Part shown: positions 2,714 through 21,026 of the stretch, piece after piece
How the letters are laid out: every line of letters starts with the position of its first letter
Numbering within the stretch: the stretch's first letter is position 1
IMG/VR virus record: IMGVR_UViG_3300027151_000054
Coordinates: 1-21,568 of that record
Source: a virus
Length of the DNA stretch: 21,568 nt
Strand: one strand, 5' to 3'
Notes under the pieces: generated by a model
Seen by the model: only the letters and a program-made list of their open reading frames with translations
Told to the model about the DNA's origin: nothing
Database searches by the model: none
Translations under genes and position numbers: made by a program

Positions 2714-4234
2714 ATGGCCAGTCTATTTGGATTTGAATTCAAACGGGTTACTCCTGAGGAGCCGCCCGTTTCCTTTGCACCACAGTCTAATGACGATGGT
2801 GCTGTTGTTGTTGCAGCCGGAGGGTCATACGGAACATATGTAGATCTAGAAGGTACTGCAAGAACAGAAGCAGAGTTAGTTACACGATATAGAGATATGT
2901 CTATCACAGCTGATATTGATAGAGCTGTTGAAGAGATTGTCAATGAAGCTATTGTTCATGAGACAGATGAGAAGATAGTTGAACTTAACTTGAATGGATT
3001 AAATTATCCAGATAATATTAAAGCTGCAATTATTCAAGAGTTTAATACAGTTAAGAATCTTTTGAATTTTGAAGAAAAGTCATATGATCTTTTCAAGAGA
3101 TGGTATATTGATGGTAGATTATACTACCATGTAATTATAGATGAGAAGAATCCTCGTTTAGGAATCAAAGAGCTTAGAAACGTTGATCCTAGAAAGATCA
3201 GAAAGATTCGCGAGCAGAAAAAGAAAAAAGATCCTAAGTCAGAATCAGTTGTTACTCAGACCACAAAAGAGTATTACATCTACAATGAAAAAGGATACAA
3301 TGCACAGGGTATAGGTAGCGGAGCAGCTGCTTACTCTGCAACTGGTATCAAGATAGCAAAAGACGCAATCGTCCATTGTACGTCCGGTCTAATGGATACA
3401 AACGGTACGATGGTTATATCTTATTTGCACAAAGCAATTAAGCCATTGAACCAGTTGAGAGTACTTGAAGATGCAACAGTTATTTACAGAATATCAAGAG
3501 CACCAGAGAGACGTATATTTTACATTGATGTAGGTAACCTACCTAAGATGAAGGCAGAACAATATCTTCGTGATATGATGGTTCGCCATAAGAACAGATT
3601 AGTATACGATGCTACTACTGGTGAAGTAAGAGATGACCGTAAGTTCATGACAATGTTGGAAGATTACTGGCTTCCTCGTCGTGAAGGTGGTAAGGGTACA
3701 GAAATTACTACATTACCAGGTGGTGAGAATCTTGGTAAGATGGAAGATGTTGAATACTTCCAAAAGAAATTATATCAAGCTCTTAATGTACCAGCAACAA
3801 GATTACAAACCGAACAGACATATTCGATTGGTAGAGCAACAGAGATTACAAGAGACGAAGTTAAATTCTCAAAATTTATCTCAAGAATGAGAGCTAAATT
3901 CTCTACATTATTTTTGAAATGTCTTGAAAAACAGTTAGTGTTGAAGGGTATTGTCACAGTTGAAGACTGGAAGTCAATGTCCCAAGCTATTAAGTTTGAT
4001 TATGCAAAAGATAACTACTATGAAGAGTTAAAAGAAACTGATGTCTTAAATTCTAGACTACAGGTTGCTGGTTTACTGACTCCATATATTGGTAAGTATT
4101 ATTCGCATGATTGGATTAGATCTAACATTTTCAAACAAAGCGATGAAGATAGAGAGCAGATGGATGAGCAGATCAAAGAAGAGCTGAGCAATCAAATCTA
4201 CTATCCACCTCCACCGCCAGAACCTCAACAATAA
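2714..4234 (+). CDS. 20: Portal vertex protein gp20
   Basis: Dodecameric portal of the head; it nucleates prohead assembly, docks the terminase during packaging and later joins the tail. The 506 residues compare with 524 in T4. Recognisable T4 portal segments are the early RYRDMSITADIDRAVEEIVNEAIV region (about residues 56-79), the block around DVEYFQKKLYQALNVPATRL, and the following EITRDEVKFSKFI. A charged linker (KKKKDPKSES) lies near residue 172 and the C-terminus ends in a proline run (YYPPPPPEPQQ). The ATG follows AGGA at 2704-2707. The gene continues directly into the prohead core genes, so portal and scaffold are probably expressed together. Confidence 0.97.
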   Translation: MASLFGFEFKRVTPEEPPVSFAPQSNDDGAVVVAAGGSYGTYVDLEGTARTEAELVTRYRDMSITADIDRAVEEIVNEAIVHETDEKIVELNLNGLNYPDNIKAAIIQEFNTVKNLLNFEEKSYDLFKRWYIDGRLYYHVIIDEKNPRLGIKELRNVDPRKIRKIREQKKKKDPKSESVVTQTTKEYYIYNEKGYNAQGIGSGAAAYSATGIKIAKDAIVHCTSGLMDTNGTMVISYLHKAIKPLNQLRVLEDATVIYRISRAPERRIFYIDVGNLPKMKAEQYLRDMMVRHKNRLVYDATTGEVRDDRKFMTMLEDYWLPRREGGKGTEITTLPGGENLGKMEDVEYFQKKLYQALNVPATRLQTEQTYSIGRATEITRDEVKFSKFISRMRAKFSTLFLKCLEKQLVLKGIVTVEDWKSMSQAIKFDYAKDNYYEELKETDVLNSRLQVAGLLTPYIGKYYSHDWIRSNIFKQSDEDREQMDEQIKEELSNQIYYPPPPPEPQQ

Positions 4235-9659: not shown

Positions 9660-11092
9660 TACAGATAGAAAAGTTTAACGAGACGTACAATAAGATTCAT
9701 TGCAGTGATGATATTGCAAGAGAGCTTAGTGATTACTTTACTTTTGAAGTACCTGGTGCTCGTTTTATTCCGTCTGTAAGAAAAAAGAAGTGGGATGGTA
9801 AGATAAGACTATTCAACTCTGGCACCCATCACATATATGCTGGACTGATTGAATATGTTGAAGACTTTGCAAAGCAAAACACATACCAGTGTGAGAGGTT
9901 AACAGACTTCTCTGATGATGTAATTGATACCGTTTCCGATATTGTTTCCAGCTTCAACCTCACCAAAGAGCCACGTGATTATCAGCTTGCTGCATTTGCC
10001 CATGCAATAAGAAAAAGAAGATCATTGCTTTTATCACCAACAGCGTCTGGTAAGTCATTAATTATCTACATGCTTTGCAGATACTATAATGTAAAGACTT
10101 TGTTGATTGTACCTACAACCTCGCTTGTTCATCAAATGTATTCTGACTTTGAAGAGTACGGATTCGATTCAAAACAAAACTGCCATATGATCTTCTCTGG
10201 TCAAGAAAAGGATGAAGACAAGCAAATATTCATATCAACTTGGCAATCAATATACAAGCAACCCAAGAAGTGGTTTGATCAGTTTGATTGTGTAATAGGA
10301 GACGAGGCTCACCTGTTCAAAGCAAACTCCCTTTCAACTATAATGAAGAGTCTGAGCAGTTGCAAATACCGCTTTGGATTTACTGGTACATTAGATGGAT
10401 CACAAACCCATAAGCTAGTGCTAGAAGGATTATTCGGAACAGTTAAAAAGGTAACAACAACATCTGAATTGATTGAACAGAAGCACCTCTCAGAGTTCAA
10501 AATTAAAGCTGTAATACTTGACTATGATCAAGAAACAAGACAGTTGATGAAGAAAGCTACATATCCGGATGAGATGAATTTCCTTGTCAATCATCTTCCG
10601 AGAAACAAGTTCATATGCAACCTGGCGATATCGTTGAAGGGTAACACGTTAGTTTTGTATCAGTATGTTGACAAACACGGTAAGGCAATATATGATGAGA
10701 TTAAAAATAAAGCAGATGGTAGACAGATTTACTTCGTCTCTGGTACGGTTAATGGTGCGGATAGAGATGATATTAGAAGATCTGTGGAGCTGGAAGTTGA
10801 TTCGATTATTGTCGCTTCTTATGGTACTTTTTCTACTGGCGTCAATATTAAGAACTTGCACAATATCATTTTCGCTTCACCTTCAAAATCAAGGGTCAGG
10901 AATCTCCAATCAATCGGCCGGGGACTTAGACTCGGGAACAATAAAGAGAAAGCATGTCTATACGATATAGCTGACGACTTGCAATGGAAGCAAAGTAGGA
11001 ATCATACACTAAATCATTTTGTTGAGCGAATTAAAATATATAATGAAGAGAAGTTTGAGTATAAGACGTACGTAATCCCACTCAAAGGATAA
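9656..11092 (+). CDS. uvsW: UvsW helicase
   Basis: Superfamily 2 helicase that unwinds R-loops and branched DNA and, in T4, shuts off origin-dependent replication late in infection. 478 residues. Motifs in order: Q-like PRDYQLAAF (about 107-115), Walker A SPTASGKS (127-134), motif Ia IVPTTSLVHQM, Walker B DEAH (216-219), motif III FGFTGTLDG, a conserved IVASYGTFSTGVNIKNLHNI block in the second RecA domain (two adjacent family segments), and motif VI QSIGRGLR. The N-terminal part (to about 100, with PSVRKKKWDGKIRLF) is the small DNA-binding domain of T4 UvsW. It overlaps uvsY by 4 nt. Confidence 0.96.
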   Translation: MIQIEKFNETYNKIHCSDDIARELSDYFTFEVPGARFIPSVRKKKWDGKIRLFNSGTHHIYAGLIEYVEDFAKQNTYQCERLTDFSDDVIDTVSDIVSSFNLTKEPRDYQLAAFAHAIRKRRSLLLSPTASGKSLIIYMLCRYYNVKTLLIVPTTSLVHQMYSDFEEYGFDSKQNCHMIFSGQEKDEDKQIFISTWQSIYKQPKKWFDQFDCVIGDEAHLFKANSLSTIMKSLSSCKYRFGFTGTLDGSQTHKLVLEGLFGTVKKVTTTSELIEQKHLSEFKIKAVILDYDQETRQLMKKATYPDEMNFLVNHLPRNKFICNLAISLKGNTLVLYQYVDKHGKAIYDEIKNKADGRQIYFVSGTVNGADRDDIRRSVELEVDSIIVASYGTFSTGVNIKNLHNIIFASPSKSRVRNLQSIGRGLRLGNNKEKACLYDIADDLQWKQSRNHTLNHFVERIKIYNEEKFEYKTYVIPLKG

Positions 11093-13101: not shown

Positions 13102-14817
13102 ATGATATTGTTTCAAAAAGTAAGATGGAAGAATCTTCTATCTACTGGAGATGTATGGACTGAGATAAACTTTATAAAGTCCAAGTCTACTTTAATAGTG
13201 GGAGAGAATGGTGCTGGAAAGAGCACCATTCTTGATGCTGTTTGCTTTGGTCTATTCGGTAAGCCATTCCGCAAGATCAATAAGCCACAGCTAGTAAACT
13301 CAATTAACAGAAAAGGTATGTTGGTTGAGTTGGAGTTTAAGATTGGTAATAGACAGTACCTGATTAGACGAGGTCATAAGCCGTCTGTATTTGAGATACT
13401 GCAAGATGGTAACATCATCAATCAGAATTCCGAAGCAAGAGAGTATCAGGAGTACTTGGAGAGTAATGTTCTTAAGCTGAACTTTAAATCGTTTCAGCAG
13501 ATTGTTATTCTCGGTAGTGCTTCTTTCACTCCGTTCATGCAGCTACCTGCATCGCACCGTAGAGAGATTATTGAAGACCTATTAGACATTCAAATCTTTT
13601 CTACAATGAATTCGTTGCTAAAAGACAAGATTACCATTAACAGAACTTCTCTTTATCAGGTTGATTATGAGATCAAAGGATCCGCTGAGAAGATTGAATT
13701 GTACAAGAAGCATATCGAGTCGTTGAAGCAGAATAATGATCAGATTGTTGAGCAAAAGCAAGTACAATTAGATGAGCTCAATAGTCAAGTTAATTCTGCT
13801 AATGAATTTGCAACTACCCTGCAGGGCCAGATAGATCTACTCAGTAAAAGTATTGACGATCATAACAAAGTTATCTCTAAGTCAAATAAGTTTGCATTAT
13901 TAAATAGACAATTAGACAGCAAGCTAGACAAGATCAAAAAAGAACTTGACTTTTTCTACGAGAGTGATGATTGTCCTACTTGCCGTCAGGGAATTGCTCA
14001 TCAACACAAAAGTGAGATTGTTGAAAAGAATCATAAACAAGTTGCTGAGATAGAAGAAGGCAAACAAAAGATGTTGGTTGAGATAGAAGCAATTGAAAAT
14101 AGATTGACAGAGATTGCCAATATCAATACTCAAATATCCACTCTTAATAGAAGGGTAACAGATGGCAACATTCAGATTAAAATATGGATGTCAATGGCTA
14201 CTGGTATTCAAACAGAGATTACTAACCTAAAGACAAACAACAAACAGATTGATACTAATACTGAAGAGTTAAAGGTTCTTAAAGAGCAACTAAGAGCAGC
14301 ATTGCAATCAAAAGAAGATCTTACAAAAGAGAAAGCAGTACTTGATGTTGCGTCTGTTCTTCTCAAAGACTCTGGTGTCAAGACTAAGATTATCAAGCAA
14401 TATATACCTGTAATAAACAAACTTGTTAACAAGTATCTTGCTGCAATGGACTTCTTTGTTGCATTCGAATTGAACGAGAACTTTGAAGAAACAATTAAGT
14501 CTAGACATAGAGATGACTTTAGTTACGAGTCATTTAGCGAAGGTGAGAAGATGCGTATTGACTTAGCACTTCTTTTCACTTGGAGAGCAATTAGTAAACT
14601 GCGCAACTCTGCTTCTACCAACCTTTTGATTATGGACGAAGTGTTTGACAGCTCACTTGACAATAACGGAACAGAGGAGTTCCTTAAAATTATCAGTACA
14701 CTTACGGCTGATACTAATTTGTTTATCATAAGTCACAAAGGTGATCAGTTGTTTGATAAGTTTCATTCTCTGATCAAATTCGAGAAACATAAAAACTTTT
14801 CAAGGATATCAAAATGA
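13102..14817 (+). CDS. 46: Recombination endonuclease subunit gp46
   Basis: Rad50/SMC-type ATPase partner of gp47. 571 residues (T4: 560). Walker A GENGAGKST (residues 34-42), Q-loop region FQQIVILGSASFTPFM, a long coiled coil (about 170-400) interrupted by a CPTC zinc hook (291-294), the ABC signature SFSEGEKMR (477-485), Walker B LLIMDEVFD (508-516) with D-loop SSLD, and a switch histidine in FIISHKGD. All parts needed for an active ATPase are intact. The stop overlaps the next start in ATGA. Confidence 0.97.
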   Translation: MILFQKVRWKNLLSTGDVWTEINFIKSKSTLIVGENGAGKSTILDAVCFGLFGKPFRKINKPQLVNSINRKGMLVELEFKIGNRQYLIRRGHKPSVFEILQDGNIINQNSEAREYQEYLESNVLKLNFKSFQQIVILGSASFTPFMQLPASHRREIIEDLLDIQIFSTMNSLLKDKITINRTSLYQVDYEIKGSAEKIELYKKHIESLKQNNDQIVEQKQVQLDELNSQVNSANEFATTLQGQIDLLSKSIDDHNKVISKSNKFALLNRQLDSKLDKIKKELDFFYESDDCPTCRQGIAHQHKSEIVEKNHKQVAEIEEGKQKMLVEIEAIENRLTEIANINTQISTLNRRVTDGNIQIKIWMSMATGIQTEITNLKTNNKQIDTNTEELKVLKEQLRAALQSKEDLTKEKAVLDVASVLLKDSGVKTKIIKQYIPVINKLVNKYLAAMDFFVAFELNENFEETIKSRHRDDFSYESFSEGEKMRIDLALLFTWRAISKLRNSASTNLLIMDEVFDSSLDNNGTEEFLKIISTLTADTNLFIISHKGDQLFDKFHSLIKFEKHKNFSRISK

Positions 14818-15008
14818 GCCAATTCGAATCTGGTAAACCTGTAAAAACATTATTAGCTGAATATGTTGATGGTGGTCCTAAGTGCATAAGAGACGATTGT
14901 GATATTCGTATACAGAGCTCTGAACGAACTATTTTATCATCTGACATACCGATGCTTGAAGAGAATGTAAAGAGATGTGTATCGTGCGGAAAAACCTGGA
15001 AGGAATAA
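14814..15008 (+). CDS. Small Cys-rich (zinc-ribbon-like) protein
   Basis: 64 residues with two cysteine pairs, CIRDDC and CVSC, about 29 residues apart, the layout of a small zinc-binding fold. The rest is polar. It overlaps gene 46 by 4 nt (ATGA) and ends 7 nt before the deformylase start, so it belongs to the recombination operon. The function is unknown. Zinc binding is inferred from cysteine spacing only. Confidence 0.75.
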   Translation: MSQFESGKPVKTLLAEYVDGGPKCIRDDCDIRIQSSERTILSSDIPMLEENVKRCVSCGKTWKE

Positions 15009-15015
15009 ACATATT

Positions 15016-15534
15016 ATGGTACTAGACTTAGTTAAACCTGATCATCCTTTATTGAGGACAAAGTTGGAGAGATTTGACTTCAACAAACAACCAACTAACC
15101 CTCATGAGTTAGCTAACAACCTAATTGAGACAATGATTCACTATAAAGGGTTGGGGCTTTCTGCAAACCAATGTGGACTACCTTACCGTGTATTTGTCCT
15201 GTGGTCGAATCCAACAAAGGTTATGTTCAACCCTGTTATTGCTGATGTATCGACGGAAGAGATTCTTTTAGAAGAAGGATGCTTGACTTATCCTAATTTA
15301 TTCGTTAAAGTGAAGCGTCCTAAGCTGATTCGTATTCGTTATATGGATTCACATGGCGAGGCTCATACAGATAAGTTTACAGGAATCTCAGCGAGATGTG
15401 TACAGCATGAGATGGATCATCTTGATGGTATAATCTATACATCAAAGGCTAACAAGTTTCATTATGATCAAGCAATGAGACAGCGTAAGAAATACAAACG
15501 TGAATATAAGGTACCAGAATATGCAGAAAATTAA
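15016..15534 (+). CDS. def: Peptide deformylase
   Basis: Removes the formyl group from the N-terminal methionine of new proteins. 172 residues with all three family motifs: GLGLSANQ (residues 45-52; usual GxGxAAxQ), EGCLT (87-91; usual EGCLS, Cys89 a metal ligand), and QHEMDHLDG (130-138; His131, Glu132 and His135, two metal ligands and the catalytic base). The ATG at 15016 is chosen over an upstream GTG at 14977, which would run 32 nt into the preceding gene; AAGGA lies at 15000-15004. Phage deformylases are known, mostly in cyanophages; no photosynthesis genes are seen here. The basic C-terminal tail (QRKKYKREYK) is an extension beyond the catalytic core. Confidence 0.95.
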   Translation: MVLDLVKPDHPLLRTKLERFDFNKQPTNPHELANNLIETMIHYKGLGLSANQCGLPYRVFVLWSNPTKVMFNPVIADVSTEEILLEEGCLTYPNLFVKVKRPKLIRIRYMDSHGEAHTDKFTGISARCVQHEMDHLDGIIYTSKANKFHYDQAMRQRKKYKREYKVPEYAEN

Positions 15535-16375
15535 AATAGCAGAACTGTTCTACAGTTTGCAGGGTGAGGGAAAGTATGTAGGTACACCTAGTGTATTCTT
15601 GCGTACTTTTGGTTGTAACTTTACCTGTGGTGGGTTTGGTATGCCAAAGGATGAGATGTCAAATGAACGGTTCAAGATTCAACCTGAACAATACAGGAAG
15701 TATGATGACTTACCTCTTGTACATACTGGATGTGATTCATATGCAAGCTGGGATGTTAGATTCAAACACCTATCTCCATTAATGACAACTGGTGATATTG
15801 CAGAAAAGATTGTTGACATGCTTCCAGAGAAGAAGTGGAACAAAGAACATCTTGTGATTACAGGTGGTGAGCCATTGCTTGGATGGCAACGTGCTTTTCC
15901 GGAGTTACTGACTCATGAAAGTATGAAGAACTTAAAGTATGTTACTTTCGAGACAAACGGTACTCAGAAGATAACAGATGAATTTAAGAAGTTTCTATTT
16001 AACTACAGTAACAAGTACGGTATGGGTGATACAGAGTTTACATTCTCTGTTAGTGCAAAGCTGAGTGCCTCTGGTGAGAGTTGGGAAGATGCAATCCTTC
16101 CGCAAGTTGTAAATACATACAACACCTACGGTCAAGTGTATCTCAAGTTTGTGATCGATAAAGATACAGACATTGAAGAGGTTGAACGAGCTGTCAAAGC
16201 ATATAGAGAATACGGACTAGGATTAGAGTGTGATGTCTACTTGATGCCAGTTGGCGGAACAGATGTCAAATACTTTAGCAACTATAAGCAAGTTGCTGAG
16301 ATGGCAATGAAGAAGGGCTGGAAATATAGCCCACGATTACAAGTTGATATTTGGCGCAATGCCTGGGGAACATGA
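15521..16375 (+). CDS. queE: QueE-like radical SAM enzyme (7-carboxy-7-deazaguanine synthase)
   Basis: QueE turns 6-carboxytetrahydropterin into 7-carboxy-7-deazaguanine, an intermediate of preQ0 used for tRNA queuosine and, in some phages, for DNA base modification. 284 residues. The N-terminus IAELFYSLQGEGKYVGTPSVFLRTFGCNF carries the QueE signature SLQGEG (12-17; the stretch is given only as landmarks). GGEP (115-118) is the SAM-binding motif. The cluster cysteines appear as Cys32 and Cys36, with the third probably Cys71 in GCDSYASW, which aligns with the CDSxxxW that follows the third cysteine in other QueE proteins. That implies a 34-residue insertion inside the usual CX3CX2C. The ATG at 15521 overlaps def by 14 nt; an upstream in-frame start at 15500 is less likely. 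Confidence 0.88.
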   Translation: MQKIKIAELFYSLQGEGKYVGTPSVFLRTFGCNFTCGGFGMPKDEMSNERFKIQPEQYRKYDDLPLVHTGCDSYASWDVRFKHLSPLMTTGDIAEKIVDMLPEKKWNKEHLVITGGEPLLGWQRAFPELLTHESMKNLKYVTFETNGTQKITDEFKKFLFNYSNKYGMGDTEFTFSVSAKLSASGESWEDAILPQVVNTYNTYGQVYLKFVIDKDTDIEEVERAVKAYREYGLGLECDVYLMPVGGTDVKYFSNYKQVAEMAMKKGWKYSPRLQVDIWRNAWGT

Positions 16376-16376
16376 T

Positions 16377-16898
16377 ATGAATGAAACAACAAGTCGTTGG
16401 ATGTCAGCAAGACAATACAAGTATGTGAGTACAAAGGAATATCACGATGCGTTTCCTTGTGCGTACAGACAATGGAGAGCGGATAGTCACTGTAACTTGA
16501 TTCACGGGTACAGCTTCTCTATGAAGTTTTACTTTGGTACGGATAATCTTGATGTTCGTAATTGGGCTGCTGATTATGGTGGTTTAAAAGAACTGAAGAA
16601 TGTACTAGAGAGTCAATTTGATCATACGTTGTTAGTAGCAGAAGATGATCCTGAACTTAATTTCTATCTACAGTTACAGGAAAGAAAGCTAGCTAAGCTA
16701 ACAATTCTTCCTAAGTTAGGATGTGAAGGTCTTGCTGATCAGCTATACAAGTATGTTAATGGTGTCTACATTCCAGATATGTGGGGGCCAAGTGAATCAG
16801 AACGTCTATGGTGCTATAGAGTAGAGGTACGTGAAACCCAAAGCAATATGGCTTTCAGAGAAGGTCATCGCGAATGGAATGAGGACTTGTTTGCATAA
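16377..16898 (+). CDS. QueD / 6-pyruvoyltetrahydropterin synthase family protein
   Basis: Member of the 6-carboxytetrahydropterin synthase fold, the step before QueE in preQ0 synthesis. 173 residues. Catalytic residues of the family are present: Cys39 in CNLIHG, Asp82-His83 in FDHTLL, and Glu153 in VEVRET. Of the three usual zinc histidines only one is clearly kept: the FxxAHR site reads FPCAYR (Tyr30) and the HGH site reads HGY (His43, Tyr45). The protein either uses other ligands (His38 is nearby) or has changed function, so I give no gene symbol. GGGGAA lies 7 nt before the chosen ATG, and the gene starts 1 nt after the queE stop. Placement beside queE supports a pathway link. Confidence 0.82.
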   Translation: MNETTSRWMSARQYKYVSTKEYHDAFPCAYRQWRADSHCNLIHGYSFSMKFYFGTDNLDVRNWAADYGGLKELKNVLESQFDHTLLVAEDDPELNFYLQLQERKLAKLTILPKLGCEGLADQLYKYVNGVYIPDMWGPSESERLWCYRVEVRETQSNMAFREGHREWNEDLFA

Positions 16899-17110
16899 TG
16901 GCTTTCAAACAATTTGCATGGGTGCCTGATGGCACCTACGATTACACTGAATATCTACTTCGTTATGTCATTGTTGATGGTAATCCTAAAACAGTGATAT
17001 CGAAGCAATGGATTGATGAGGGTGGACCAGAACTGATAGCACCTGAACTCAGACAACCATGGAATACTTTTCCAGACTTCCCTCCTAAACCACCAAAGAA
17101 GTTGACTTGA
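16898..17110 (+). CDS. Small unknown protein
   Basis: 70 residues, rich in aromatic residues and proline, starting MAFKQFAWVPDGTYDYTEYLLRYV (here only as a landmark in two parts: MAFKQFAWVPDG, then TYDYTEYLLRYV) and ending in a proline-lysine tail (PKPPKKLT). No domain is recognised. Its start shares one base with the queD-like stop (TAATG), which indicates coupled translation. The stop codon lies inside the -35/spacer of the promoter at 17102-17130. Confidence 0.75.
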   Translation: MAFKQFAWVPDGTYDYTEYLLRYVIVDGNPKTVISKQWIDEGGPELIAPELRQPWNTFPDFPPKPPKKLT

Positions 17111-17130
17111 CCAAAACTATGTGATACAAT
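17102..17130 (+). promoter_or_regulatory. Sigma70-like promoter
   Basis: TTGACT (17102-17107), 17-bp spacer, TACAAT (17125-17130). Predicted start near 17137, giving a very short leader that carries GGAG (17139-17142) before the ATG at 17151. It would serve the small gene at 17151 and the tRNA after it. Confidence 0.8.
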
Positions 17131-17150
17131 CCATTTTTGGAGATTACATT

Positions 17151-17354
17151 ATGGACAACACACACATCAGAGATTGCTTTATCAAAGCTGTTCATGCTTT
17201 CAAGAACAAGCCTAAAGTGCTTGGACAAGTATTTCGTGACGCTATGATGTACAAAGATCAAGGTGTATTGTCTGAAACTGACATAAGTATGTTAAGAACT
17301 TTGAGCTCTCAGCATCATGCTTTACGTGGTGTTGACTTTTCAAAACAGTTCTAA
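17151..17354 (+). CDS. Small unknown protein
   Basis: 67 residues, mostly helical and mixed in charge (HIRDCFIKAVHAFKNKPKVLG; QVFRDAMMYKDQGVLSETDI). No motif is recognised. The ATG at 17151 is preferred to an in-frame start at 17121 because GGAG lies 8 nt upstream and the predicted transcript begins near 17137. It is the first gene after the promoter and ends 6 nt before a tRNA gene. Confidence 0.75.
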   Translation: MDNTHIRDCFIKAVHAFKNKPKVLGQVFRDAMMYKDQGVLSETDISMLRTLSSQHHALRGVDFSKQF

Positions 17355-17360
17355 TACAAT
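17332..17360 (+). promoter_or_regulatory. Sigma70-like promoter abutting a tRNA 5' end
   Basis: TTGACT (17332-17337), 17-bp spacer, TACAAT (17355-17360): the same hexamers and spacing as the promoter at 17102-17130. The -35 is inside the preceding coding sequence. A start about 7 nt after the -10 would fall at 17367, inside the tRNA, so it cannot make that tRNA whole but could serve the genes at 17457 and 17915. Confidence 0.6.
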
Positions 17361-17437
17361 GCGCTGGTAGCTTAGCGGTCTAAAGCAGCGGACTCATAAT
17401 CCGTTGATCGGGGGTTCAAATCCCTCTCAGCGCACCA
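17361..17437 (+). tRNA. tRNA with CAT anticodon (Ile2 or Met)
   Basis: Cloverleaf with acceptor GCGCTGG/TCAGCGC (one G-U), anticodon stem GCGGA/TCCGT, loop CTCATAA (anticodon CAT at 34-36), T arm GGGGG-TTCAAAT-CCCTC and encoded CCA (17435-17437). CAT is read as elongator Met or, if the host lysidine synthase TilS modifies C34, as Ile for ATA codons. The TTGATCG after the anticodon stem resembles bacterial tRNA-Ile2 (TTGGTCG), and ATA codons are frequent here, so Ile2 is favoured but not proven. It is not an initiator: no GGG/CCC anticodon stem. Confidence 0.95.
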
Positions 17438-17456
17438 TTTTTAAACGGAGTATATT

Positions 17457-17918
17457 ATGAATAAAACATCTTGGGTAATTACTGTTGAAGAAGATCCTGT
17501 CTCTGGTGATATGATTCTTCCTTTGAATGATGAGATTCTTGAAGCGATCAACCTTAAAGAAGGTGATCCAATTGAGTGGTTTAATCGTGGTGATGGATCT
17601 TGGGAGATTCGCAAGGTAGAGAACCACAAAGAAACTGAATGGGTATTGGTTGAGTGTACTTCAACATACCGTATGCGTTACATGGTTGAGGTGCCAAAAG
17701 GCAAGGCTGAATGGGCACTTGATACAGTGACAATGGAAGAAGCTAAAGAATTTAGTCAAGAACATTTAGGTGAACAGATCTTTAGTCACCGTGTTGTGAC
17801 ATATGACGAGGCTCTTGAGATGTGTGATAAAGATAATGATTACTGTAAAACGTGGCCAGATGAAGTTAAAGTTAAGAACTTCTTTACACGTGTAGATGAA
17901 GTTAAGGAATCGTTTTGA
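17457..17918 (+). CDS. Protein with AbrB/MazE-like N-terminal domain
   Basis: 153 residues. The first 55 or so (WVITVEEDPVSGDMILPLND, then EILEAINLKEGDPIEWFNRGDGSWEIRKV as adjoining blocks) follow the swapped-hairpin AbrB/MazE pattern: short strand, hydrophobic strand, LPLxDEILEAxxLKEGD, polar turn, final strand. The C-terminal part (about 60-153) is acidic with WVLVECTSTYRMRYMVEVP and a DNDYCKTWPDEVKVKNFF segment that I recognise only as a phage unknown. AbrB-type domains bind DNA as dimers or act as antitoxins; no toxin gene is beside it. GGAG at 17447-17450 sets the ATG. The stop overlaps the next start (TTGA). Confidence 0.7.
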   Translation: MNKTSWVITVEEDPVSGDMILPLNDEILEAINLKEGDPIEWFNRGDGSWEIRKVENHKETEWVLVECTSTYRMRYMVEVPKGKAEWALDTVTMEEAKEFSQEHLGEQIFSHRVVTYDEALEMCDKDNDYCKTWPDEVKVKNFFTRVDEVKESF

Positions 17919-18586
17919 AAGTTTACATAAGCAATTATCGCGATCATTGGATTAGTCCTTATACTATTCTTGAAAAAGTCTGCTTTTGGGAAAAAGATAA
18001 GGATGTATTCTACAATCATACTGATAAACCAAATGCACCGTATGAAAAGTGGATTAATTTTTTGACACCGATCTGCGGTGCTATTTCAAAGTTCTTTGAC
18101 TTTGTACATCCTAAAATTGATTATGTAAAGATCGATAAGTGGGATACGTGGTCAATGGATTCAACATTGGGTAAGATTGTTCTGCCTATGTTGAAGCAGT
18201 TAAAAGCAAATACACACGGTGCCGGATTTGTTGATGATGAAGATGTACCTGAAGAATTCAAGACAACCTCTGCTCCTCCCAAAGTGAATGAATATGATAT
18301 TGATGATAATCATTTCAAGCGTTGGGAATATGTTATGGGTGAGATGATTTTTGCATTTGAATCCCACCAAGATCACACATGGCAAGATGCATTTCGTTCA
18401 GGTGACCATGATATGAAAACTGTAGCATGTGCCTGGGATGATAATGGTAAGGCTACGATGTATCAATGGGTTGAAGGACCAAACAATACATATAAGTGTG
18501 ACTATGATGGTATGAGAGTTGTCGAAGACCGAATTAAGAATGGATTCCGATTGTTTGGCAAGTACTATCAAAACCTTTGGGATTAA
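17915..18586 (+). CDS. Conserved phage protein of unknown function, TTG start
   Basis: 223 residues, rich in Trp, Asp, Lys and His. Landmarks: MKVYISNYRDHWISPY at the start, DYVKIDKWDTWSMDSTLGKIVLPMLKQLK (about 69-97, in two parts) with conserved-looking Trp and Asp residues, EDVPEEFK, and a helical ERW-type region HFKRWEYVMGEMIFAFES. I recall similar proteins in many myoviruses, always without known role. The start is TTG at 17915 with AAGGA at 17904-17908 (6-nt spacing) and overlaps the preceding stop; there is no nearby ATG that keeps the conserved N-terminus. Confidence 0.8.
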   Translation: MKVYISNYRDHWISPYTILEKVCFWEKDKDVFYNHTDKPNAPYEKWINFLTPICGAISKFFDFVHPKIDYVKIDKWDTWSMDSTLGKIVLPMLKQLKANTHGAGFVDDEDVPEEFKTTSAPPKVNEYDIDDNHFKRWEYVMGEMIFAFESHQDHTWQDAFRSGDHDMKTVACAWDDNGKATMYQWVEGPNNTYKCDYDGMRVVEDRIKNGFRLFGKYYQNLWD

Positions 18587-18588
18587 TG

Positions 18589-18617
18589 TTGACATTAGAA
18601 GTTGGTCTTGATATAAT
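18589..18617 (+). promoter_or_regulatory. Consensus sigma70 promoter
   Basis: TTGACA (18589-18594), 17-bp spacer, TATAAT (18612-18617): a perfect sigma70 consensus. Predicted start at 18624-18626. It drives the lipoprotein and ArfA-like genes. A terminator hairpin begins on the very next base. Confidence 0.95.
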
Positions 18618-18650
18618 GAGGTTGTGATTAGTTTACAACCTCTTTTTTTT
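18618..18650 (+). terminator. Intrinsic terminator overlapping a promoter start
   Basis: GAGGTTGT (18618-18625) pairs perfectly with ACAACCTC (18635-18642) around a 9-nt loop, followed by eight T residues. It would stop transcripts from the upstream genes. RNA begun at the promoter just upstream would start at about 18624, lack nearly all of the 5' arm, and so escape termination. Confidence 0.85.
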
Positions 18651-18662
18651 GAAAGTTATATT

Positions 18663-19229
18663 ATGAAGAAGTATTTTGCGATGACAGCTATTGCATTGGC
18701 TGTAGTAGGATGTGCAAGCAATCCTAATAAGATGACAGAGATCAAGGAAGCTCCTAGAAGCGCTACCTCTACGACCATTCCAGAATGGTTTGTCACTGGT
18801 CCTGCTCCTGATGGTAAGGATATTATTGTCACAGCAACTGACACATCGCGTGAGATGCAGTTTGCTATTGACAAGGCTACAATGAATGCTCGTGTTGAGT
18901 TGGCCAACAGAATAAATATTAGAGTACAGTCTATGGTACGTGAAAGCGTTACTGAAGAGGGTGCTGGTAAGATGAAAGATGTAGAACGAGAAGTGGAACG
19001 TGTATCAAAGTTGGTAACGAATCAATCTCTTTCAATGTATACTAGAGATAAATTGCTAGTAGTAAAAGAAGATGACGGATTCCGTGCTTATGTGATGCTA
19101 AAGTTGAACGTTGACCAAAGTCGTCGTTTGGTAGATAATACACGTAAGGGCTCTCGTGAACGTGATGACAAGTTCGATGAGCTGGATCAATCAATTAAGA
19201 AAGAAAATGCAGAAGGTAAAAAGTCGTAG
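18663..19229 (+). CDS. LPP20-type lipoprotein
   Basis: 188 residues with a short signal peptide (MKKYFAMTAIALAVVGC) and lipobox V-V-G-C, lipidated at Cys17. Residue +2 is Ala, not Asp, which in Gram-negative bacteria favours sorting to the outer membrane. The mature part has PEWF near residue 39 and an ATDTSREMQFAIDKATMNAR segment followed by VELANRI, the pattern of LPP20-like lipoproteins. The C-terminal third is helical and charged. The ATG at 18663 is preferred to an upstream in-frame ATT-region start at 18624 because it gives an exact signal peptide. The leader lacks a strong ribosome site (GAAAG only). The role in infection is unknown; altering the surface to block other phages is one possibility. 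Confidence 0.85.
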   Translation: MKKYFAMTAIALAVVGCASNPNKMTEIKEAPRSATSTTIPEWFVTGPAPDGKDIIVTATDTSREMQFAIDKATMNARVELANRINIRVQSMVRESVTEEGAGKMKDVEREVERVSKLVTNQSLSMYTRDKLLVVKEDDGFRAYVMLKLNVDQSRRLVDNTRKGSRERDDKFDELDQSIKKENAEGKKS

Positions 19230-19356
19230 AAAAGCAAACGCAGTAGCTAAGGATCTTCGGACTCCTAAGTACAGACTGCGTGTTGTTGAATCTAAAATTG
19301 CATACGACAGAAAAAAAGTCAAAAAAGTTCTTGAAACTGTTGACCTGTCGTTATAA
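19207..19356 (+). CDS. ArfA-like alternative ribosome-rescue factor
   Basis: 49-residue, very basic protein. Residues 10-40, landmarks NAVAKDLRTPKYRLRVVES and AYDRKK, match the ArfA core of E. coli ([31 protein letters not shown]): both have N-A-hydrophobic, a helix turn, xPxFRxRV, a basic loop and a Y-x-R-K motif. ArfA frees ribosomes stalled at the end of broken mRNAs by recruiting release factor RF2. The start codon is inside the lipoprotein gene (23-nt overlap) with only a purine-rich AAGAAAG upstream, so translation is probably coupled. A hairpin covers the last third of the gene, as in bacterial arfA. The short hydrophobic tail (VLETVDLSL) lies in that part. Confidence 0.72.
   Translation: MQKVKSRRKANAVAKDLRTPKYRLRVVESKIAYDRKKVKKVLETVDLSL
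19305..19350 (+). other. Hairpin within the 3' end of the arfA-like gene
   Basis: CGACAG (19305-19310) pairs with CTGTCG (19345-19350), GTCAA (19318-19322) with TTGAC (19340-19344) and AGTT (19326-19329) with AACT (19335-19338). A bulge of seven A lies on the 5' side. No T-tract follows. It spans codons 33 to 48, before the stop codon. Confidence 0.6.
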
Positions 19357-19359
19357 ATA
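19352..19359 (+). promoter_or_regulatory. T4-type late promoter in the tRNA region
   Basis: Exact TATAAATA overlapping the stop codon of the arfA-like gene (19354-19356). The predicted start is near 19365. No large gene follows; the transcript would be about 177 nt long, ending at the terminator at 19511-19541. Confidence 0.8.
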
Positions 19360-19395
19360 AAGTAAAGTACAATCTGTTTTGTAAGGAATAAAAGA

Positions 19396-19482
19396 ATGCA
19401 GAGTATCCATCTATCACCGTCGACGCCCAAGGCCTCTATTGAGGTTGGGTATCGCTTTGCGTCATGGAGTAATGACGTATAG
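19396..19482 (+). CDS. Possible 28-residue ORF in the late transcript
   Basis: ATG with AAGGA (19383-19387) at good spacing, then 28 codons beginning MQSIHLSPSTPKA and ending in TAG at 19480-19482. Its codons are more GC-rich than those of its neighbours and coincide with the paired arms of the hairpin, so RNA structure may explain the sequence better than coding. If translated, its stop codon ends at the first G of the antiterminator arm, which would suit a leader peptide. Confidence 0.3.
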   Translation: MQSIHLSPSTPKASIEVGYRFASWSNDV

Positions 19483-19510
19483 GGGTTCATAGTGTACTTG
19501 TATTCTATAA

Positions 19511-19541
19511 CCCCAGTCCTAAACAAACTGGGGTTTTTTTT
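19511..19541 (+). terminator. Intrinsic terminator before tRNA-Gln
   Basis: CCCCAGT (19511-19517) pairs with ACTGGGG (19527-19533) around a 9-nt loop, followed by eight T residues. The preceding AA can also pair with the first two T residues. An alternative upstream pairing uses the same CCCC. Confidence 0.92.
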
Positions 19542-19593
19542 AGTTGGTCTTTACTGACTAGAAGTAGTTCATTAATAATTTACTGGTTTTTAT

Positions 19594-19667
19594 TGGGGTA
19601 TAGCATAGTGGTAGTGCTGCGGACTTTGAATCCGTAGGTCCTTGTTCGATTCAAGGTACCCCAGCCA
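19594..19667 (+). tRNA. tRNA-Gln (TTG)
   Basis: Acceptor TGGGGTA/TACCCCA, as in bacterial tRNA-Gln including the unusual first T-A pair, discriminator G and encoded CCA. Anticodon stem GCGGA/TCCGT, loop CTTTGAA with anticodon TTG, reading CAA. T arm CTTGT-TCGATTC-type with TTCGATT loop. Confidence 0.95.
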
Positions 19668-19678
19668 TATAAAAACAC

Positions 19679-19721
19679 ATTCTCTACTGGGTATGAATAA
19701 AATTCTCTGGTGGGTATGAAT
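19679..19721 (+). repeat. Two 20-bp direct repeats between tRNA genes
   Basis: ATTCTCTACTGGGTATGAAT (19679-19698) and ATTCTCTGGTGGGTATGAAT (19702-19721) match at 18 of 20 bases with a 3-nt spacer. They lie between tRNA-Gln and tRNA-Ser. No function is evident. Confidence 0.85.
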
Positions 19722-19733
19722 GTGTTTCTATAT

Positions 19734-19822
19734 GGGGGGTTATCGGGGCTGGGCCCTGCGCTGTCTTGAAAACAGATGGACTTTTAACGAGGTTGGAGTT
19801 CGATTCTACCATCCCCCCGCCA
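19734..19822 (+). tRNA. tRNA-Ser (TGA), irregular T arm
   Basis: Anticodon loop CTTGAAA (anticodon TGA) in the context GTCTTGAAAAC, as in bacterial tRNA-Ser(TGA); a long variable region marks a class II tRNA; encoded GCCA end. The acceptor is six G-C pairs (19734-19739 with 19813-19818). The seventh pair and the T stem do not both close: a bulged A (19811 or its neighbour at 19808) or a T-T mismatch must be allowed. The D and variable arms are also weak. It may be functional or decaying. Confidence 0.75.
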
Positions 19823-19837
19823 ACATAAGGAGTTATT

Positions 19838-20014
19838 ATGGAAAGTCTGGTATACCGTTTACGCAAGCGTGCTGAAATACGCAGGCAAATAAAAGATAGA
19901 AAGTCTGTTCAGGAAAATAAACCTGATCGGATTGCGGACCTATTAGAAGAGGCTGCAAATAAGATTGAAGAATTGGAGAATGGGCAGGATAGTAATGAGG
20001 TTACTGATCCGTGA
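19838..20014 (+). CDS. Small conserved phage protein (58 aa)
   Basis: 58 residues: a basic helix (LVYRLRKRAEIRRQIKDRK), then KPDRIADLLEEAANKIEELE, an amphipathic helix that could form a coiled coil, and an acidic end. AAGGAG (19827-19832) precedes the ATG at 19838. I recall close relatives with the RKSVQExKPDRIADLLEEAA pattern in other phages, of unknown function. It begins 16 nt after tRNA-Ser, probably on the same transcript, and ends just before the next promoter. Confidence 0.82.
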   Translation: MESLVYRLRKRAEIRRQIKDRKSVQENKPDRIADLLEEAANKIEELENGQDSNEVTDP

Positions 20015-20024
20015 ATCATCAATG

Positions 20025-20053
20025 TTGACAGTCCAATTTGGATCTACTATAAT
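20025..20053 (+). promoter_or_regulatory. Consensus sigma70 promoter
   Basis: TTGACA (20025-20030), 17-bp spacer, TATAAT (20048-20053): a perfect consensus. Predicted start near 20060, leader of about 17 nt with GGAG (20067-20070) before the ATG at 20077. It serves the DD-peptidase and the two tRNAs after it. Confidence 0.95.
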
Positions 20054-20076
20054 GTAAGATCACTTTGGAGATGTCG

Positions 20077-20853
20077 ATGAAGATTATTGTTGGAATTGTA
20101 CTTGCGCTTAGTTCTATATGTTATGCAGCACAAAGACCCAGTGTCCTATTGTATAATTCTACAGACGACAAGCACATATACAATGATAACATAAATGTGA
20201 CAAGACCAATTGCTAGCATTACTAAGTTAATGACAGCGATGGTAACTTTGGATCACGATAAGAATTTGAGTAGACAGTTAATGTTATCATTAAAAGTAGG
20301 TGGTAGTTTACCTAGACAGAAGTACACAAGGCTAGATCTTATCAATGCAATGTTAGTAAGAAGTGACAATGCAGCAGCAGAAACACTTGCTGATGACTAT
20401 CCAGGTGGTAGGAAAGCGTTTATCAAGGCAATGAATGACCATGCAACACAAATGCAATTGAGTGCTAAGTTTGTAGATCCAACTGGCCTTAGTAAACAAA
20501 ATACCGGTACTGCTAGCGATGTAGTATCAATGTTTGAGATTGCATCTGGTTACTGGGTAATAAGAGATGCAAGTGTTCAGAAGCAAATAGTAATAGATGC
20601 TAAGTTTAAGAAGAAAGTAAGAAAGATTGTTCTTAATAATACTAATAAGCCAATCTTGTTTGAATTTGATAACGTAATAGTTAGCAAGACAGGATTTACT
20701 AATTCAGCAGGATGGTGTGTTGGATTAGTGGTAGTCAAAGATGAAAAGAAGTATGTTGTTGTTGTACTCGGAGCAAGAAGTAAACAAAAACGTGCTGATG
20801 CGATTGATGAGGTGTTATACAATTATGTTGTTGACACAGAAGTAATAAAGTAG
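20077..20853 (+). CDS. Secreted D-alanyl-D-alanine carboxypeptidase/endopeptidase (PBP, peptidase S11)
   Basis: Low-molecular-weight penicillin-binding protein fold, acting on peptidoglycan peptides in the periplasm. 258 residues. Signal peptide at residues 1-17 (MKIIVGIVLALSSICYA), then all three active-site motifs: SITK (Ser47 nucleophile, Lys50), SDN (96-98) and KTG (204-206). It lacks the C-terminal domain and amphipathic anchor of DacA-type enzymes (about 400 aa) and is nearer in plan to PbpG/PBP7, a DD-endopeptidase that cuts cross-links. Carboxypeptidase and endopeptidase activity cannot be told apart from sequence. GGAG spacing favours ATG 20077 over ATG 20071. A role in lysis, cell wall change during infection, or entry are all possible. 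Its stop overlaps a tRNA by one base. Confidence 0.9.
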   Translation: MKIIVGIVLALSSICYAAQRPSVLLYNSTDDKHIYNDNINVTRPIASITKLMTAMVTLDHDKNLSRQLMLSLKVGGSLPRQKYTRLDLINAMLVRSDNAAAETLADDYPGGRKAFIKAMNDHATQMQLSAKFVDPTGLSKQNTGTASDVVSMFEIASGYWVIRDASVQKQIVIDAKFKKKVRKIVLNNTNKPILFEFDNVIVSKTGFTNSAGWCVGLVVVKDEKKYVVVVLGARSKQKRADAIDEVLYNYVVDTEVIK

Positions 20854-20942
20854 GAAGACGGGCAGGACGGTAATGCAGCGGATTGCTAATCCGTAGACTG
20901 ATGAAAGTTGGTCATAGGGTTCGACTCCCTAGTCTTCCACCA
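20853..20942 (+). tRNA. tRNA-Ser (GCT)
   Basis: Acceptor GGAAGAC/GTCTTCC, anticodon stem GCGGA/TCCGT, loop TTGCTAA (anticodon GCT, reading AGC/AGT), long class II variable arm with GAC/GTC pairing, T arm TAGGG-TTCGACT-CCCTA and encoded CCA. The discriminator is A, where bacterial tRNA-Ser usually has G. Its first base is the last base of the preceding TAG stop codon. Confidence 0.93.
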
Positions 20943-20950
20943 AAATATAT

Positions 20951-21026
20951 GTCTGCGTGACCCGAAAGGCTAGGGAGCGGATTGCAAATCCGTTATATGT
21001 AGGTTCGATTCCTATCGCAGATTCCA
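20951..21026 (+). tRNA. tRNA-Cys (GCA)
   Basis: Acceptor GTCTGCG/CGCAGAT (first pair G-U), anticodon stem GCGGA/TCCGT, loop TTGCAAA (anticodon GCA), T arm TAGG-TTCGATT-CCTA, discriminator T, which is the Cys identity base, and encoded CCA (21024-21026). It ends one base before the stop of the convergent gene. Confidence 0.94.

Follow-up and report, generated by a model that had tools for sequence, protein, structure and literature searches.

The element described here lies in a T4-like phage. The stretch of DNA that we analysed, hereafter the window, is a whole IMG/VR contig of 21,568 bases; it encodes tail-sheath Pfam domains and a portal protein (a gp20 homologue) that shares about 55% identity with those of T4-like phages, and inspection of its open reading frames (ORFs) revealed further structural and replication ORFs as well as neighbouring core genes. 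On the plus strand, an upstream unit ends with a gene of unknown function (17915-18586; phrog_11543), whose TAA stop codon at 18584-18586 lies 2 nt ahead of a -35 box. The product of 17457-17918, on the same strand, weakly resembles MazE antitoxins, at 21.3 bits and thus under the Pfam cut-off. The first gene of the downstream unit (18663-19229, plus strand) codes for a predicted lipoprotein with a weak LPP20 match of 16.9 bits, again below the Pfam cut-off. Further along the plus strand, we noted at 19352-19541 a T4-type late promoter motif (TATAAATA) followed by a 28-codon ORF (19396-19482) and a terminator (CCCCAGT...ACTGGGG and T8, -13 kcal/mol), and at 20025-20853 a D-alanyl-D-alanine carboxypeptidase-like protein (Peptidase_S11, 2.8e-35), whose gene has its own perfect promoter and no overlapping terminator.

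The promoter between the two units (18589-18617) combines the -35 hexamer TTGACA (18589-18594), a 17-nt spacer and the -10 hexamer TATAAT (18612-18617) and thus matches the consensus at 12 of 12 positions; we call it sigma-70-like after this consensus. Perfect promoters of this kind occur twice in the window (at 18589 and 20025), against 0.014 expected per shuffled window, so that a chance origin is unlikely. As an earlier note on this DNA had it, the promoter ends at 18617 and a terminator stem begins at 18618, with zero gap after the -10 box: a 10-bp stem (GAGGTTGTGA/TTACAACCTC; 18618-18627 and 18633-18642) encloses the 5-nt loop TTAGT and runs into a T8 tract (18643-18650), the predicted 3' end of readthrough RNA. 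The hairpin has a folding energy of -14.2 kcal/mol (z = -5.3 against shuffles) and belongs to the only three strong hairpin-plus-T-run terminators on the plus strand of the window. Simple arithmetic from three terminators, two perfect promoters, seven positions and 21.6 kb gives a probability of about 0.002 for a terminator beginning no more than 3 nt from a perfect -10 box.

Standard sigma-70 spacing places the start of the downstream transcript at G18624, the seventh base past the -10 box and a purine at the usual distance. With this predicted start, the 5' arm of the stem would double as promoter discriminator and first transcribed bases, while the 3' arm would be left without a pairing partner, as the 5' leader of the RNA made from the promoter. 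The folding energy of the RNA depends steeply on where it begins: -14.2 kcal/mol from 18618, -9.7 from 18620, -6.0 from 18621, -3.0 from 18622, -1.7 from 18624 and 0 from 18625 onwards. Judged by these modelled energies, the argument that the terminator is hidden from its own promoter would be valid for starts at 18622 or later. The earlier note had stated that RNA begun at about 18624 lacks nearly the whole 5' arm, and this holds with a minor correction: such RNA retains GUGA, a 4-bp remnant worth -1.7 kcal/mol, and the remnant disappears when the start moves to 18625. With the 5' arm located ahead of the new start, only readthrough RNA would be able to build the hairpin.

One part of the earlier proposal is not supported: that the element ends one unit and starts the next with no interference. 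This does not follow, because the T tract sits downstream of the promoter, and a polymerase arriving from upstream crosses the -35 box, the -10 box and the +1 position before it stops, the predicted stop site being 26 nt downstream of the predicted start. Promoter occlusion by the upstream polymerase is possible, and on this analysis the crossing polymerases could either occlude the promoter or feed it.

We consider it likely, from the sequence, that this is a compact operon-junction element, at which readthrough RNA would be stopped while RNA from the promoter would escape. Its components would be a host-type (sigma-70-like) early promoter whose -10 box abuts the 5' arm of an intrinsic terminator, and a start site within that arm. 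Co-directional RNA from upstream, carrying both arms, would fold and stop at T8, whereas RNA initiated at about 18624 would miss six of the eight core bases of the 5' arm, could not rebuild the hairpin and would read on into the lipoprotein gene.

Comparison with relatives indicates how the element relates to its surroundings. Two relatives' contigs are identical to the window at the element. A third, L004, is 77% identical over 14758-18586 and 88% over 18588-21016, and where the window passes from 18586 to 18588 it has an insertion of about 1.15 kb with additional small genes, after which homology resumes at the -35 box; its element differs by a single change in 62 bp, located in the loop, and the TGA stop codon of the last inserted gene falls inside the -35 hexamer. 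The L004 comparison thus argues that the element kept its place ahead of the following gene through a change of the preceding one. Beyond these, DNA searches of the phage collection gave short matches only; a 29-nt blastn match of the 67-nt element in the microvirus bajarodmic virus 368 (E = 0.003) is situated within the major capsid gene and was deemed to be chance. The spacer motif GTTGGTCTT is common to the composite promoter and to a second perfect promoter of the same phage group, located ahead of a tRNA-like gene (L239, G002:34428-34456; L236, G001:14890-14918). We considered this motif as a possible activator site and set it aside, as it also occurs within a tRNA-like sequence and at other sites. 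The tRNA-like sequence of the window itself (19734-19818, plus strand) was missed by ARAGORN and scored 43.2 bits for Rfam tRNA-Sec, just under the 47-bit cut-off; its anticodon loop, CTTGAAA, suggests a tRNA-Ser(UGA) rather than a selenocysteine tRNA.

T4-like phages are known to carry promoter-early stem-loop (PeSL) cassettes, composites of promoter and terminator that are implicated in gene shuffling, as credited to Arbiol et al. 2010 (10.1093/gbe/evq006) and Comeau et al. 2014 (10.1093/gbe/evu129) in a citing paper (PMC4503421). The window element resembles them in uniting a strong sigma-70-like, putatively early promoter (12/12 match, 17-nt spacer) with a stem-loop, here a strong hairpin plus T8 for which termination is predicted, at a module boundary of a T4-like phage with insertion or deletion of neighbouring genes; in our case, the gene gain or loss boundary between relatives coincides with the element in one comparison, that with L004. 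It differs in order. In RB49, most pairs place the terminator before the promoter: the terminator lies upstream of the -35 box in 12 promoter-terminator pairs of this phage, compared to two in the composite position. Likewise, 12 related freshwater contigs contain 11 terminators upstream and two composites, namely the window element and its L004 homologue, which are the only instances of the exact geometry in the window phage's own group (12 contigs). In the incomplete contigs G001 and G002 there is one composite of this geometry, whereas PeSLs would be expected in several copies per genome, enabling recombination between copies. By the RB49 and freshwater counts, the window element would act like a PeSL, uniting a terminator and an early promoter where modules meet, but with the two overlapped and their order reversed; it is probably a variant geometry of this known kind, as judged by the order prevailing in RB49. 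The RB49-type order would avoid polymerase crossing the promoter, because there the terminator lies upstream of it. RB49 also holds a more extreme nested promoter-terminator (3174-3201, minus strand; L218), in which a 13-bp hairpin has the -10 box as its loop and is succeeded by TTCTTTT.

The earlier note had suggested looking for -10 elements fused to terminator stems in other phages, and the layout indeed recurs. A scan of IMG/VR for TTGACA-N17-TATAAT with T8 16-36 nt later returned at least 120 stretches, with 102 distinct sites among the matches listed; the counts contain related sequences. Since the matches listed are a sample that includes related contigs, the figures that follow are sample fractions and not counts of independent origins. 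Among the matches listed, a strong hairpin ends at T8 in 37 of the 102 distinct sites (0.65 expected in shuffles), the stem starts between -5 and +3 from the end of the -10 box in 34 of these 37, and in 32 of the resulting 34 composites a co-directional ORF ends between -19 and +17 nt from the -35 box, compared to a baseline of 31% of random positions with an ORF end in the wider span searched (-60 to +30). The geometry is therefore observed to recur at gene boundaries of unrelated viral contigs. Reversing both hexamers left four sites in the whole collection, and reversing only the -35 hexamer 14, versus at least 120 true ones; no hairpin was found at these control sites at the same threshold (one fell just below it). 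In bacterial genomes, a hairpin was present at only 4 of 115 near sites among the matches listed. Strong hairpins, positioned 11-49 nt past the -10 box, were also present among the matches listed with T8 at 37-67 nt (26 of 96 viral promoters; L306-L424); these attenuator-like leader hairpins are candidate attenuators. The base composition of the 5' arm (99 G versus 62 C at near sites, 59 G versus 74 C at far ones) suggests that a G-rich 5' arm has a dual role as discriminator, although the effect is modest.

Hiding of the 5' arm is graded across the composites and not universal. For RNA starting at +7, 14 of the 34 composites among the matches listed keep almost nothing (at least -3 kcal/mol), 13 keep between -3 and -6 kcal/mol, and seven fall below -6 kcal/mol. 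The earlier idea of a terminator hidden from its own promoter is thus supported by geometry, energetics and recurrence, but not as a universal rule.

Pattern searches also located the layout in named cyanomyoviruses, where it is not annotated as such in the records: P-SSM4 (51677-51732 of AY940168), P-RSM1 (10157-10211, minus strand) and metaG-MbCM1 (47573-47629) each have one element of TTGACA-N17-TATAAT and stem, beginning with the first base past the TAG-ended upstream coding sequence. Like the window, they thus present a stop codon, a perfect promoter, a stem right after the -10 box and a T run; unlike it, they have another stem and spacer sequence and are surrounded by small ORFs, ahead of gene 25. 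The stems differ from one another (GGGGGT/ACCCCC; AGAGGGGT/ACCCCTCT; and a third version in relatives, AGGGGGT/ACCCCC), and RNA from +7 folds with 0 kcal/mol in all three elements. P-SSM2 has a pattern match without an obvious stem, and the pattern had no match in T4, RB49, KVP40 (searched with the perfect-promoter and promoter-plus-T6 patterns), nt-1, Syn9, S-PM2, HTVC008M, Aeh1, 44RR or S-CRM01. As far as sequence patterns tell, and with proportions taken from the matches listed, many phages share the composite geometry, notably marine cyanophages.

It is conceivable, if improbable, that the window holds a self-attenuated promoter like that of E. coli ampC/frd, whose hairpin would end the upstream operon and also partly terminate its own RNA, giving a low basal level. 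In this precedent, as predicted for the window, one hairpin ends the upstream operon beside the downstream promoter, and the ampC promoter overlaps the upstream operon; the upstream terminator serves as the downstream gene's attenuator because its hairpin is part of the RNA that the ampC promoter makes, at +17 to +37 (PMC11838884). The leader hairpins of the far viral promoters, fully contained in the transcript, fit such a role, as do the seven composites whose truncated RNA stays below -6 kcal/mol. In the window, however, the 5' arm begins one base past the -10 box, at about -6 and not +17, and hence precedes the start, so that the whole hairpin is not in the transcript and RNA from 18624 is left with only -1.7 kcal/mol. 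We regard as somewhat less probable still that the arrangement exists for polymerase recycling, in which an enzyme stopped at 18650 would stay on the DNA, slide back about 30 bp and re-fire the promoter, thereby coupling the two units. After hairpin termination, E. coli RNA polymerase can stay bound to DNA and fire again from whichever promoter is nearest, on either side, but according to the same report this has not been shown in vivo (PMC11347151); predicted stop site and promoter are indeed separated by about 30 bp, yet genome compaction accounts equally well for this proximity. Recycling could also operate in addition to the operon-junction function rather than replace it. Equally improbable is that only one half is functional, be it the terminator of the upstream gene, with a promoter-like sequence arising next to it by chance, or the promoter, with a hairpin of no consequence: while a consensus match by itself is no proof of function, the promoter is a 12/12 match with 17-nt spacing, L004 preserves the -35 box, spacer, -10 box, stem and T8 without change, and the viral association of perfect promoters with abutting hairpins is strong and depends on an intact -35 box.

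We thus favour the operon-junction element, with readthrough RNA stopped and promoter RNA escaping. More tentatively, and with the odds somewhat against it, nested junctions with a hidden 5' arm may be a widespread, independently arisen phage device, forming one-way gates of about 60 bp at stop codons that possibly recapture terminated polymerase. In compact phage genomes, one unit must end and the next begin in very little DNA, and the 62-bp layout would do both jobs with a stop signal that is blind to RNA starting within it. For synthetic circuits, such an element is a simple part; in unannotated viral contigs it is a marker of operon boundaries, and it offers a clean test system for whether a polymerase that crosses a promoter, or terminates at it, blocks or feeds that promoter.
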